A DNA stretch of 64,000 nt. It comes from Thiomicrospira cyclica ALM1. Its GTDB lineage: Bacteria; Pseudomonadota; Gammaproteobacteria; Thiomicrospirales; Thiomicrospiraceae. The position numbers were made by a program, and so were the translations under genes. Positions 2,038-64,000 of the stretch are shown here, piece by piece. Numbering within the stretch: position 1 is the stretch's first letter; each line of letters starts with the position of its first letter. The notes under the pieces were generated by a model, which was not told the DNA's origin, did not search any database, and was given only the letters and a program-made list of their open reading frames with translations. Location of the stretch: contig NC_015581.1 of assembly GCF_000214825.1 (NCBI RefSeq), positions 1,426,001 through 1,490,000 of the forward strand. The letters run 5' to 3'.

Positions 2038-3471
2038 TTAGTTTTTTAATTTTTCTTGCAACAAATCATTCACTTGCGCTGGATTTGCCTGCCCTTTTGA
2101 CAACTTCATCACCTGACCAACAAAGAAGCCAAACATTTTTTCTTGGCCGCCTTTATAAGCCTCAACCTGTTTGGCATTCGCTGCCAACACCTCATCAACA
2201 ATTTTCTCAATCGCACCACTATCGGTAATTTGCTTTAAACCTTTGGCATCAATGATTTGATCCGCAGAACCTTCTCCAGCCCACATGGCTTCAAACACCT
2301 GTTTGGCTAACTTACCTGAAACCGTATTATCAACAATACGGATTAGCAGGCCTGCTAAGGCATCGGCGGCAATCGGTGACTCCTCTAAACTCAAATCCGC
2401 TTTATTGAGGGATTTTGCTAACTCTCCATTCATCCAGTTAGCGGCCAGTTTGGCTTGCTCGGCACCGAGTTGTGCGACCAACGCATCAAAATAACGCGCG
2501 TTAGCGGCTGATGCGGTGAGGAGCTGGGCATCATAGGCCGACAAACCATAATCCTGTTCAAAACGCACCCGCATTTGTCCTGGTAATTCGGGTAATGCGG
2601 CCTTAATCGCCGCCAACTGCTCATCACTAACCACAACCGGTAGCAAATCCGGATCTGGGAAATAACGGTAATCGTTTGCTTCTTCTTTTGAACGCATAGA
2701 ACGAGTTTCATCACGCTCTGGGTCATAAAGACGGGTTTCTTGGACAATCTCACCACCCGCTTCTAAAATTTCGATATGGCGGTCAATTTCATAAGCTAGG
2801 GCTTTTTCAATAAATTTAAACGAGTTGATATTTTTTAACTCGGTGCGGGTACCAAAGGCTTCGCCGGGTTGGCGTAATGACACATTGACATCCACTCGGA
2901 ACGAGCCTTCTTGCATATTGCCATCACCAATTTCTAAAAACTGCACCAGCTCATGAATGGCCTTGGCATAGGCCACTGCTTCCGCAGCCGAGCGCATATC
3001 CGGCTCTGATACGATCTCCAGCAAGGGCGTGCCGGCACGGTTTAAGTCAATCCCAGTTAGGCCCTGAAAATCCTCATGCAACGACTTGCCGGCATCTTCT
3101 TCTAAATGTGCACGCGTAATACCAATGGTTTTTTGCTGCCCATCCACCTCAATCGTGATTTCTCCTTTACCGACAATCGGCAGTTCAAACTGGGAAATTT
3201 GATAGGCTTTTGGCGAATCGGGATAAAAGTAGTTTTTACGTGCAAACACCGAAGTTTGACCAATCTCGGCGCCCACCGCCAAGCCAAAACGAACCGCCAG
3301 TTCAACGGCGCGGGCATTCAGCACTGGCAACACGCCAGGTATCGCCAAGTCAACAACATTGGCTTGAGTATTAGGCTCGGCGCCATAAGCGGTTGGCGCA
3401 TTCGAAAATATTTTCGATTCACAAGCCAGCTGCGCATGAATCTCAAGACCAATTACGACTTCCCAATTCAT
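2038..3471 (-). CDS. gatB: Asp-tRNA(Asn)/Glu-tRNA(Gln) amidotransferase subunit B
   Basis: GatB is the tRNA-binding kinase subunit of GatCAB, which converts misacylated Glu-tRNA(Gln) or Asp-tRNA(Asn) into the correct aminoacyl-tRNA. The start is set at [15 protein letters not shown], because GatB proteins begin with this motif and its ATG overlaps the gatA stop by 4 bp (ATGA). The open frame extends 14 codons further upstream inside gatA, but that stretch is not GatB-like. The product is about 477 aa, with the cradle domain, the [13 protein letters not shown] active-site strand, and a C-terminal YqeY-like tail (about 330-477) that binds tRNA. One CAGGCCTG copy lies at 2347. It is last in the gatC-gatA-gatB operon. 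Confidence 0.96.
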
Positions 3472-4934
3472 AATGCTGCTCCTTGTGCCATAGGTGCGCG
3501 TTGTAGATGCCAATCGGTATGTAACTGATACTGGTGCGCCACATTCAATAATTTTGCTTCGCTAAAATAGGGGCCAACTAGGTGCAATCCAACCGGCATA
3601 CCCTTAACCTGACCGGCCGGAAGCGACATCGCCGGCAGCCCTGCTAAGTTCACTGGAATGGTATATAAATCGGCCAAATACATACTTAACGGATCATCAC
3701 TTTTTTCACCCAACTTAAATGCGGGAGTAGGCGCAACAGGCCCCATAATCACATCGCATTGCTCAAAGGCAGATAAAAAATCTTGCTGAATCAAACGACG
3801 CACCTTTTGCGCCTTCAAATAGTAGGCATCATAATAACCTGCCGATAAGGCATAGGCACCGAGCATAATCCGTTTTTGTACTTCAATACCAAAGCCCTCG
3901 GCTCGTGAACGCCCATAGAGATCGGCCAAATCCTTCGGATCTTCACAACGGTGACCATAACGGACCCCATCAAAACGCGACAAATTCGATGAGGCCTCTG
4001 CTGGTGCCAAAATATAATAGGCCGCCACCGCGTGTGCTTGATTCGGCAATTCGACCGCCACGAGCTCCGCGCCCAGTTTTTCATACTCAGCAATGGCCGT
4101 CTCGATGACTTTTTTAACGTCAGCATCTAGACCTTCACCAAAGTAGCTGGTAGGCACCCCAATACGCAGGCCTGCTAAGGGCTGAGCCAAAGCGGCTACA
4201 TAATCGGGTTTCGGTTGATCTAAGCTGGTAGAGTCACGCAAATCAAAACTATGCATCACATCTAAAGTCAGTGCTAAATCTTGAGCAGATTGCGCCATCG
4301 GGCCGGCCTGATCAAAACTTGAGGCATAGGCAATCATGCCAAAACGTGAGGCGAGTCCATAGGTTGGTTTCAAGCCACTGATACCACAAAAGCTGGCTGG
4401 CTGACGAATTGAGCCACCCGTATCCGAACCGGTGGCAAATGGCGTTAACCCGGCAGCAACAGCCGCGGCGGAACCACCGGACGAACCACCTGGCACACGG
4501 TCAAGCGACCAGGGGTTTTTAACCGCGCCAAAAAAACTCGACTCATTCGATGAGCCCATCGCAAACTCATCCATATTCGTTTTACCCAATACCGGCATAT
4601 CTAAGGCTTTGAATTGACTCACGATATGAGCGTCATATGGCGCGGTAAAATTCGCCAACATTTTAGAACCACAGGTCGTTAAGACGCCATCGGTACAAAA
4701 TATATCTTTGTGCGCCATCGGAATACCACATAAATTGGGGGCATCACCTTTTGCTAAACGCTGGTCAGCCGCCTGTGCCATGCGCAAGGCCTGCTCAGGG
4801 GTCGTCGTAATAAAGCTGTTTAGCTCTGGCTCATGTGCTGCGATACGCGCTAAAAAAAACTCGGTAAGCTCAACACTCGAAATTTGCTTGCTTTGTAAGG
4901 CCTGGTTAAGCTCCGCTAAGGACATCATATTCAT
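3468..4934 (-). CDS. gatA: Asp-tRNA(Asn)/Glu-tRNA(Gln) amidotransferase subunit A
   Basis: GatA hydrolyses glutamine and delivers ammonia to GatB. The amidase-signature catalytic triad is complete: Lys in AHKDIF (about residue 76), Ser in [12 protein letters not shown], and the nucleophile region [14 protein letters not shown]. The 488-aa length is normal. The first of three closely spaced Met codons (MNMM) is used here, so the true start may be 6-9 nt later. The stop overlaps the gatB start by 4 bp, which implies translational coupling. A CAGGCCTG copy is at 4167; related AAGGCCTG words occur at about 4785 and 4889. Confidence 0.96.
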
Positions 4935-4963
4935 TAAAGGATTTCTCTTAGTTAATTCGGTAT

Positions 4964-5251
4964 TTATTCAATCACTTTAGGCACAAGATACAAGCCTTGC
5001 TCACAGGCTGGTGCCAAGGCCTGATACTTTTCACAATCCACCACCTCAACAGCCTGATCCAATCGCAAACGCTGCACCTGATCAAGCGGATGAGCCATAG
5101 GCTTTACCCCATCGGTGTTAACCTGTTCGAGTTGTGCAAACAAATCCAATACATTAGAGAGCTTGGCTGACAATTTGGTTAAGTCCTGTGTTGATACGTC
5201 AATTGCTGCCAATTTTGCAATCTTCAAGACATCATCTTCAGATAAGGCCAT
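4964..5251 (-). CDS. gatC: Asp-tRNA(Asn)/Glu-tRNA(Gln) amidotransferase subunit C
   Basis: GatC is the small chaperone-like subunit that wraps GatA and GatB. The 95-aa protein has the usual N-terminal [16 protein letters not shown] helix, a central [19 protein letters not shown] segment, and the [14 protein letters not shown] region. It is first in the gatCAB operon and divergent from mreB across 182 bp that must hold both promoters. The presence of GatCAB suggests that the host uses indirect charging of Gln-tRNA and/or Asn-tRNA. Confidence 0.93.
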
Positions 5252-5433
5252 AGTGCGTTCTATTCCAGTTGAGTAAATTTAAAAAAGCTGATTCTAACAT
5301 TGAAAAAGCCATGCGCCAATTTACTGGCTAAATTAGTGCACTTCTACATACTTTTATTCTGATACTAAATCAAAATTTGCGCTACAATATCAAAAATTAG
5401 TCTCATTAAAATACAAAACTATCAGGACAACGC

Positions 5434-62987: not shown

Positions 62988-63006
62988 ATAATGAAATACG
63001 CCAAGA

Positions 63007-63037
63007 GGCGCACAGTTAGTTGCCTAACTTGCGCGCC
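63007..63037. repeat. Long inverted repeat between glgP and ffs
   Basis: GGCGCACAGTTAG-TTGC-CTAACTTGCGCGCC forms a 13-14-bp stem with one or two mismatches. It lies 46 bp after the glgP stop and 20 bp before the ffs 5' end. It may be a glgP terminator without a T run, or a processing or protein-binding site. Confidence 0.6.
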
Positions 63038-63082
63038 ATTGTAGCAGAAGTTAACCTCTTGTCCAATGCAATCGAATATGAC

Positions 63083-64000
63083 CTAGCTGACGTTCACTGG
63101 GGTTAAATGCCAAATTTCATCGTTATATTGTTGCATGGTACGGTCCGTCGAGAACATACCACTGCGCGCAGAATTGACGATACTCATTTTCACCCAGGCC
63201 TGCTGATTCTTATAAGCCTGGGCCACTTGCTCTTGCGCAGCAACATAACTACGGAAATCCGCCAAGGTCATCCAAGGATCATGCGGTGCCATAAAGCTGG
63301 CAATCACGTCATCAAATAAACCGGGCTCTAACGGATTAAAATGGCCAGAGCGTAAGAGATCAACTACGCCTTGTAAATCGGCATCCGCATCTATGTAGCT
63401 TTGCGGATAATACTCGCCTAACTTGGCTTGCACCTCATGCGCACGTAAACCAAACAAGAAGAAGTTATCATCACCGACTGACTCACGGATTTCGACATTC
63501 GCGCCATCCAACGTACCAATCGTAATCGCACCATTCATCATAAACTTCATATTACCGGTACCAGATGCTTCTTTACCAGCTGTCGAAATCTGCTCGGACA
63601 CATCGGCCGCCGGGCAAATCACTTCCATCGTCGATACACGGTAGTTTGGAATAAACACCACTTTCAATTTATCGCCAATCTCGGGGTCGTTGTTAACCAT
63701 CATCGCAATGTTATTGATGAGTTTAATAATGGTTTTTGCCATCGCATAACCCGGCGCAGCTTTGCCACCAAAAATAATCACTCGATTGGTCCAATTTGCC
63801 GTGTTGCCTAACTTAATTTGACGATACAAATGAATCGCATGCAGGGCATTCAGTAACTGGCGCTTGTATTCATGAATCCGCTTCACCTGCACATCGAATA
63901 TGGCATCGGTACTCACTTGCACACCCACTTCTCGGGCGATTAAATCGGCCAAACGCTGCTTGTTCGCCTGTTTAATATCAAACCAGGCCTGCTCGAAGGC
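63083..64000 (-). CDS. glgP: Glycogen/starch phosphorylase, C-terminal part (cut by window edge)
   Basis: GlgP releases glucose-1-phosphate from alpha-glucans. About 305 codons are visible and the frame is open at the right edge. They include DVQVKRIHEYKRQLLN, GGKAAPGYAMAKTIIKLIN, VVFIPNYRVSTMEVICPAADVSEQISTAGKEASGTGNMKFMMNGAITIGTLDGANVEI with the PLP lysine (GNMKF), and the C-terminal helices. The N-terminal regulatory half lies outside the window. CAGGCCTG at 63195 and 63984. Confidence 0.96.
   Translation of the reverse strand, partial: AFEQAWFDIKQANKQRLADLIAREVGVQVSTDAIFDVQVKRIHEYKRQLLNALHAIHLYRQIKLGNTANWTNRVIIFGGKAAPGYAMAKTIIKLINNIAMMVNNDPEIGDKLKVVFIPNYRVSTMEVICPAADVSEQISTAGKEASGTGNMKFMMNGAITIGTLDGANVEIRESVGDDNFFLFGLRAHEVQAKLGEYYPQSYIDADADLQGVVDLLRSGHFNPLEPGLFDDVIASFMAPHDPWMTLADFRSYVAAQEQVAQAYKNQQAWVKMSIVNSARSGMFSTDRTMQQYNDEIWHLTPVNVS

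Follow-up and report, generated by a model that had tools for sequence, protein, structure and literature searches.

A highly iterated palindrome in Thiomicrospira cyclica ALM1, with dialects among its relatives, as a probable DNA-uptake-type word

The window is the whole 64,000-nucleotide stretch of Thiomicrospira cyclica ALM1 analyzed here (contig NC_015581.1, positions 1,426,001 to 1,490,000), numbered from its first letter. It contains exactly 33 copies of the octamer CAGGCCTG, with starts spanning 2347 to 63984. Eighteen of them form the full 12-mer ASCAGGCCTGST: 2347–2354 (its 12-mer starting at 2345), 16406–16413, 26388–26395, 26757–26764, 27072–27079, 31156–31163, 33475–33482, 41061–41068, 41789–41796, 43200–43207, 46501–46508, 47482–47489 (where the relative G007 has CAGGCCTA), 49396–49403, 51289–51296, 52536–52543, 52944–52951, 61134–61141 (within the DnaX gene) and 63984–63991. 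The other copies lie at 4167–4174, 14618–14625, 15035–15042, 21307–21314, 41624–41631, 42475–42482, 45608–45615, 46972–46979, 51984–51991, 55749–55756, 56173–56180 and 63195–63202, at 9183–9190 within the gene for penicillin-binding protein 2 (PBP2), where both relatives compared lack the word in ungapped alignment, at 20483–20490 within the LptD gene, and at 22503–22510, the sole copy without C/G on both sides. The first-pass annotation had claimed at least 33 copies against about one expected, C/G flanks on both sides of 32 and an outer A and T around most. Our counts agree: 33 copies, flanked by C/G on both sides in 32, with the outer A and T on both sides of 19 and at 52 of 66 half-sites.

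Markov models of order 1, 2 and 3 predict 0.95, 1.25 and 1.44 sites per window. The expectation rises to 3.80 at order 4 and 17.88 at order 5, a model that already holds most of the word. Across the genome (1,932,455 bp), CAGGCCTG occurs 840 times, compared with 3 for a reversed-pattern control, which excludes both a count near expectation and an enrichment limited to the window. The 12-mer ASCAGGCCTGST was found at 117 sites in a 482 kb sample, about 615 times the order-3 expectation. Single-base variants, proposed as a further check, gave a divided answer: for the octamer they barely exceed expectation (219 against 179), whereas 12-mers with one mismatch are enriched (104 against 2–4). Words are dispersed along the chromosome (1–14 per 20 kb in 20 samples) at a density of one per 2.3 kb, and their spacing, for which evenness had been proposed as a check, is random (coefficient of variation 1.02, n = 169). 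Two stretches of the genome, L052 and L056, are word-poor, with one word per 20 kb each. Although both resemble islands, L052 falls within a giant repetitive gene and an rRNA operon (∼5.4 kb) makes up part of L056, and both are therefore uninformative about foreign DNA.

Within the genus, the word is mostly genic. Of 190 sites, 174 lie within genes, matching coding density and giving no sign of an intergenic preference, and they are spread over the three reading frames as 87, 78 and 9. Avoidance of one frame is what codon preference predicts, and it speaks for an origin through biased mutation or repair, or through codon usage, in which the word would arise without being recognized by anything. 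Conservation was measured against matched codons, as the first-pass annotation had advised. In two relatives from the same genus, at 76% nucleotide identity, the words are identical at 25 of 30 and 24 of 27 sites; for control 8-mers the figures are 13.7% and 12.9%. At conserved amino acids, the codon inside words is kept in 52 of 59 and 54 of 62 cases (expected 24.1 and 24.7), that is, 87–88% against 40–41% for the same codons elsewhere. This largely refutes an origin by bias: codon-matched conservation makes mutation bias alone insufficient, and related genomes are, moreover, dominated by different words. We consider such an origin highly improbable.

Words private to one genome indicate how the sites came about. 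They fall in ungapped alignments in 24 of 25 cases with G007 and 21 of 22 with G002 (45 of 47 in total), which shows, on alignments with two relatives, that words in this genus arise by substitution. Passages of PMC1626085 report the same of USS words that are private to one genome. A short dispersed mobile repeat of the REP or MITE type would instead be expected to insert outside genes, and for this genus that explanation is refuted by the ungapped private sites; its words are also mostly genic, and no conserved flank was found past 12 bp. The observations that recall mobile repeats come from G030, G032, G034 and G041, in which the words lie mostly outside predicted genes (12%–39% inside) and some form inverted pairs, seen in flanks in G032, G034 and G041 and once in G030. 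Taken over the whole data set, a mobile repeat is barely credible.

The word had been described as marking this chromosome. It does so genome-wide, but its range is wider, extending to the whole genus and to half of the family members sampled. All nine genomes of the genus carry 840–1128 copies of CAGGCCTG, and the word is abundant in 32 of 62 genomes from the family, which is probably Thiomicrospiraceae; among 365 other Gammaproteobacteria sampled, the count never exceeds 338. Other members of the family have words of their own. G029, which is low in CAGGCCTG, has 1025 copies of the palindromic ACCGGCCGGT, present at most 15 times in each of the other 61 genomes. G030, G032 and G034 have 331, 371 and 403 copies (both strands counted) of the non-palindromic CCAGGYTGGG, of the AAAATCTRCCAGGYTGGG type, which is found at most 15 times in each of the other 59. 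Samples from G041 (17 sites in 105 kb) and G027 (20 sites in 60 kb) revealed further words, bringing the inventory to four words counted genome-wide and two known from samples. The words of G030, G032, G034, G041 and G027 are all non-palindromic and have an A-tract upstream. These one-sided dialects occur on both strands in 21 of 24 samples and have no strand polarity. In the genus itself, no A-tracts were found beside the word.

The variable letter of CCAGGYTGGG separates the dialects further. It is C (CCAGG-C-TGGG) at 18 of 18 sites sampled from G030, and T (CCAGG-T-TGGG) at 16 of 17 from G032 and 13 of 13 from G034. Three G030 sites could be aligned with their counterparts; G034 has T at all three, and G032 has the T word at two and a decayed word at the third. 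These samples, with same-site evidence from three sites, suggest that the word of these close relatives switched from C to T genome-wide. When seven word labels, which we assigned ourselves, were mapped onto a tree of PBP2 from 30 genomes, seven changes were needed, compared with a minimum of six and a shuffled mean of 10.7. No convincing word, hidden or gapped, emerged from searches of G010 and G016 (pooled), G035, G042, G043, G049, G014 and G022 in 20–119 kb each, the samples being small for G022, G014 and G049. The other low-count genomes were counted for three patterns only and may therefore hold further words.

The relatives in which no word was found and the one-sided dialects bear on the possibility that the word is bound inside the cell by a protein that structures or segregates DNA (a nucleoid protein, a condensin loader or a matS- or parS-like system) whose specificity changed between species. 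Palindromes would fit a dimeric protein, and strong conservation of sites that are spread over the whole chromosome would be natural for one. The density is, however, very high and the spacing random, the one-sided dialects lack polarity, and no convincing word was seen in 40–79 kb from each of the close relatives G010, G016, G035, G042 and G043, which would need to manage without one. We find this explanation unlikely.

A second possibility is a relationship with the HIP1 palindrome of cyanobacteria, in which a methyltransferase would act on AGGCCT, on GGCC or on some longer sequence, and the mark, through methyl-directed repair or in some other role, would make and keep the word. CAGGCCTG and ASCAGGCCTGST are highly iterated GC-rich palindromes, and an octamer extended palindromically to 10–12 bp at high density, like the replacement of the word by alternate palindromes in relatives, is described for cyanobacteria in passages of PMC4390886. 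The genic location of the word in this genus also agrees, as might the single N6_N4 methyltransferase hit in the T. cyclica genome (G000:C1:999401-1000039, 69.8 bits). HIPs are, however, accompanied by cognate methyltransferases. When PF00145, PF01555 and PF02086 were searched over 62 genomes, no methyltransferase in these families tracked the word. Within the genus, PF00145 was found in none of nine genomes, PF02086 in one and PF01555 in six (five above the cut-off). Of 31 word-bearing genomes that are at least 99% complete, 11 lack all three families (G002, G003, G011, G020, G023, G029, G030, G033, G037, G039 and G046); each of the remaining 20, that of T. cyclica included, gave one hit or more, not always above the cut-off. 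In addition, the alternates in G030, G032, G034, G041 and G027 are not palindromic, and A-tract dialects of about 18 bp are unlike a type II methylation site. The methylation-linked explanation is thus weakened, and we regard it as unlikely.

Of the readings that the first-pass annotation had left open, the comparison favors a DNA-uptake word, because the dialects replace one another, some are non-palindromic with A-tracts, the words are conserved in position and they originate by substitution. Together with genome-wide over-representation of a short word on both strands, these features make it probable that ASCAGGCCTGST functions in self-recognition as a word of the uptake type, related in kind to the USS of Pasteurellaceae and the DUS of Neisseriaceae and atypically palindromic here. 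Like the USS, it is hugely over-represented on both strands and has dialects within its family, and the one-sided dialects flank a GC-rich core with AT-tracts, as passages of PMC7811141 and PMC3630211 describe for Haemophilus influenzae. It differs from the USS in its core, in its palindromic form, which this genus shares with many relatives, in the lack of A-tracts in this genus and in its host, which belongs to a different group of Gammaproteobacteria; in USS the uptake function is known, and here we infer it. The DUS offers parallels in dialects that follow phylogeny, in wordless relatives and in inverted pairs between genes, which the same sources describe at terminators. DUS dialects, however, share a CTG core and are non-palindromic, and their receptor, ComP, is known, whereas the counterpart here is putative. 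Several observations count against an uptake function: passages of PMC1939737 describe known USS and DUS as non-palindromic, the word of this genus has neither A-tracts nor an intergenic preference and is randomly spaced, and single-base variants of the octamer are scarcely enriched.

We propose that the competence pilus would bear a DNA receptor, most probably one of the type IV minor pilins, that recognizes the word on extracellular DNA during natural transformation, and that fragments carrying it would be drawn in preferentially via the secretin and ComEC. Once imported, such fragments would recombine with the chromosome and so carry the word to hundreds of sites and keep it there, and a shift in receptor specificity would shift the word population and so give rise to species dialects. 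What we infer in this scheme is the preference in uptake, the receptor and the drive by which the word is kept. The word being a 12-bp palindrome in this genus, its receptor could read either orientation; some relatives retain only one half of the word, with an A-tract alongside.

Both parts of the competence machinery searched for were recovered: ComEC in 37 of 38 word-bearing genomes, and a pilin N-terminus in all 21 genomes screened for it. ComEC is non-discriminating, however, being present in 19 of the 24 genomes in which none of the words was found. The minor-pilin operon is fast-evolving, and the T. cyclica copy (genome positions 1506045–1508522) includes a basic pilin (pI 9.0); those of the one-sided relative G030 range from pI 5.8 to 8.4 and are not all basic, a point against the uptake function. 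No ComP-like sequence-specific receptor was identified among the candidates in this operon, and the structure predicted for one candidate minor pilin (244 aa) was unusable (mean pLDDT 41). The papers listed by literature searches included none reporting transformation in these bacteria. For the octamer CAGGCCTG, the matches listed had titles on unrelated subjects, and nothing listed contradicts the first-pass annotation, which knew of no described element with this consensus in the group.

Only two bacterial families, to our knowledge, have well-established uptake words. We give roughly even chances to a broader proposal, that this family of environmental sulfur oxidizers has its own uptake words, and that an apparently ancestral palindrome, legible in both orientations, gave rise to a shortened palindrome and to one-sided dialects with A-tracts, hundreds of dispersed sites switching their letter in concert when the receptor changed. 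If so, a further family would provide an independent test of how uptake words arise, spread and change, and its palindromic, shortened and one-sided dialects, together with the relatives in which no word was found, would allow the coevolution of receptor and word to be tested directly in environmental bacteria. If the word does not serve uptake, a genome-wide mark kept at 83%–89% of aligned sites despite 24% divergence around it still needs explaining. The dialects extend to named relatives. A GlnA search gave ten records at 83%–88% identity, among which Hydrogenovibrio sp. JE_KL2 has the T dialect (4 sites in ∼21 kb) and Thiomicrospira sp. WB1 has CAGGCCTG (6 sites in ∼21 kb).

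The octamer CAGGCCTG, which the first-pass annotation reported in at least 33 copies with about one expected, was counted 33 times in the window (between 2347 and 63991), where Markov models of orders 1–3 predict 0.95–1.44. The flanks also agree with that annotation, with C/G on both sides in 32 of 33 copies; 18 of the 33 are the full 12-bp palindrome ASCAGGCCTGST. The excess extends genome-wide: the single 1,932,455-bp contig of T. cyclica ALM1, of which the window covers positions 1426001–1490000, carries 840 copies and 3 of a backward control (the pattern reversed), and 482 kb sampled from it contain 198, versus 9.07 predicted (order 2). 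In this sample, full 12-mers occupy 117 sites, versus 0.19 predicted by order 3 (234 versus 0.38 counting both strands). There are 104 12-mers with one mismatch (2–4 in three simulations), and the outermost base is the changed position in 63. Changing one base of the bare 8-mer gives variants with hardly any enrichment (219 in 464 kb, versus 179 expected), which makes the core nearly all-or-none. No conservation was seen beyond ∼12 bp around the word in the own-genome samples. The same samples are poor in GGCC overall (0.74 of the order-2 expectation) and yet 2.7-fold enriched in AGGCCT; of the hexameric palindromes, GGGCCC is avoided most strongly.

The word had been said to mark this chromosome. 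It is certainly abundant here, but its range is wider. Comparison with related species gave 840–1128 copies in all nine genomes of the genus, and 32 of the 62 family genomes are rich in it (236–1173 copies; 0–74 in the other 30). Within a class sample of 369 genomes, the maximum among the 365 outside the family was 338 (G283, 4.1 Mb, control 20). The window proteins are gammaproteobacterial. The ten best named relatives of GlnA (83–88% identity) are from Hydrogenovibrio, Thiomicrorhabdus, Thiomicrospira, and some records with less precise names, and the family is therefore probably Thiomicrospiraceae.

Two same-genus relatives, G007 and G002, were aligned to T. cyclica over 54.9 and 52.6 kb, respectively, at 76% nucleotide identity. 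The T. cyclica words are identical in 25 of 30 and 24 of 27 cases, versus 13.7% and 12.9% for control 8-mers with six G/C. Conservation exceeds codon expectation, as the first-pass annotation had proposed to check: where the third base lies in the word and the amino acid is conserved, 52 of 59 (G007) and 54 of 62 (G002) codons are unchanged, versus 24.1 and 24.7 predicted by how those codons fare elsewhere. Where a word is present in one genome and not the other, the alignment is ungapped in 24 of 25 and 21 of 22 cases, indicating that words arise by substitution. The relatives are richer in words across the aligned blocks (43 versus 30 for G007, 41 versus 27 for G002). The word is real, genus-wide, and under selection.

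Some genomes low in CAGGCCTG carry other words instead. G029 has 1025 copies of ACCGGCCGGT, which reaches at most 15 in the other 61 family genomes; CCAGGYTGGG, on both strands, occurs 331, 371, and 403 times in G030, G032, and G034 and at most 15 times in the other 59. With its flanks, this word is AAAATCT(G/A)CCAGGCTGGG in G030 and AAAATCT(G/A)CCAGGTTGGG in G032 and G034. These words are non-palindromic, as are those of G041 (AAAAATCGCCAGGGGTGG, 17 sites in a 105-kb sample) and G027 (AAAACTCAACAGGCCGGGT, 20 core sites in 60 kb). The variable letter was C at 18/18 sampled G030 sites and T at 16/17 in G032 and 13/13 in G034; at three alignable same-site pairs, G034 has T at all three and G032 at two, with a decayed word at the third. 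Hydrogenovibrio sp. JE_KL2 has T at 4/4 sites, and because this named strain shares the T dialect, all three genomes are probably Hydrogenovibrio. No convincing word, gapped words included, was found in 40–79 kb each of G010, G016, G035, G042, and G043 (the first two pooled for the gapped search). On a midpoint-rooted PBP2 tree of 30 genomes, in which G011 and G041 are long-branched, the word labels need seven changes (minimum possible 6, shuffled mean 10.7). CAGGCCTG is present on either side of the root, which would suit an ancient word that was subsequently lost in some genomes and switched in others.

Positions were scored against crude longest-ORF gene calls, by which 174 of 190 T. cyclica sites are genic (coding fraction 0.922; 87, 78, and 9 per frame). 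The genic share is 54%–62% for other palindromic dialects (13–37 sites each), 12%–39% for G030, G032, G034, and G041 (13–18 sites each), and 60% for G027 (12/20). Adjacent sites <60 bp apart, counted regardless of orientation, numbered four in G032, three each in G034, G029, and T. cyclica, one each in G030 and G041, and none in G027. Inverted pairs of words were seen in the sequence around sites of G032, G034, and G041, and one in G030. A/T-rich bases tend to flank both sides of the palindromic forms in G011, G020, G028, and G046; such flanks are absent from sampled T. cyclica sites. Upstream of the A-tract, many G041 words (L227, L261, L262, L100) have another short A-rich stretch (such as AAAG) ∼10 bases away, an arrangement reminiscent of the paired AT-tracts in the USS of H. 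influenzae. An intracellular structural role for the word seems improbable. Chi and KOPS are strand-polar; the non-palindromic words are not, since both strands were present in 21 of 24 samples.

The anatomy of the word matches that of uptake words. It shares over-representation with them generally, dialects and word-less relatives with the Neisseriaceae DUS (PMC3630211), AT-tracts with the H. influenzae USS, where they matter for uptake (PMC7811141), origin by substitution (PMC1626085), and inverted pairs, described together with terminators (PMC3630211; PMC13020248). Known uptake words differ in that they lack the palindromic form, and the genus of T. cyclica also departs from them in missing A-tracts and lacking an intergenic preference. 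The first-pass annotation had left uptake, methylation or segregation, and mutation/repair bias open; a self-recognition word of uptake type is now the best reading and a reasonably probable one, in which cells would preferentially import DNA that carries it. A methylation-linked word, which we consider unlikely, has its parallel in cyanobacterial HIP alternates, which accompany specific methyltransferases and, where described in section 2.3 of the source, are palindromic (PMC4390886). Unlike them, the dialects here include long non-palindromic words, and no methyltransferase that tracks the word was found among PF00145, PF02086, and PF01555 matches in the 62 family genomes. Within the genus, C5 (PF00145) is found in 0/9 genomes, D12 (PF02086) in 1/9, and N6_N4 (PF01555) in 6/9, T. 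cyclica included; of the 31 genomes that bear a word and are at least 99% complete, 11 are without all three and the other 20, T. cyclica among them, match one or more. Among the openly licensed PMC papers listed for the octamer and for uptake in Thiomicrospira, Hydrogenovibrio, and Thiomicrospiraceae, none describes the word, judged by title and abstract start, and passages of PMC1939737 and PMC3497702 name neither Thiomicrospira nor the word.

ComEC is encoded in 56 of the 62 family genomes: 37 of 38 word-bearing genomes (the exception, G059, is 82% complete) and also 19 of 24 where none of the words was found. The T. cyclica pilus locus (L223) encodes a pilin, an MshE/PilB-like ATPase, a PilC-like protein, and a secretin. 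Separate from it, at 1506045–1508522 (L063), lies an operon that encodes a pair of minor pilins plus one further protein. A minor pilin is a proposed USS receptor (PMC12616744). We treat this operon as no more than a lead to a word receptor. Its proteins are 62%–70% identical to their G007/G002 orthologs; most flanking proteins are 77%–98% identical, with two less conserved (49%–79% and ∼62%). Among the NCBIfam matches, which lie mainly at the N-terminus, only the general prepilin N-terminus passes its curated cut-off. The operon's final pilin has a basic pI of 9.0; basicity is not uniform among the G030 pilin-operon proteins.

Other repeats and elements were also seen. A + strand frame in T. 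cyclica (L052, 340001–360000) is open for 6666 codons across the entire 20 kb, which holds a single CAGGCCTG; with its degenerate threonine/glycine/asparagine-rich repeats, it is part of a giant adhesin-like gene. G011 (L086, L237) has dispersed AGGCTAAAGCCTGCGCCCC in close inverted pairs, REP/REPIN-like and distinct from its CAGGCCTG word. In G020 (L109:1105–3399), 18 copies of a repeat with GGCTTAGAAA, in two groups at ∼60-bp spacing, form a probable CRISPR array, and a very long repetitive stretch of G008 (L125, 1500001–1520000) carries 272 GATACGGA on one strand. Rfam places an ordinary TPP riboswitch at 52304–52403 of the window and an equally ordinary bacterial small SRP RNA at 62883–62979.
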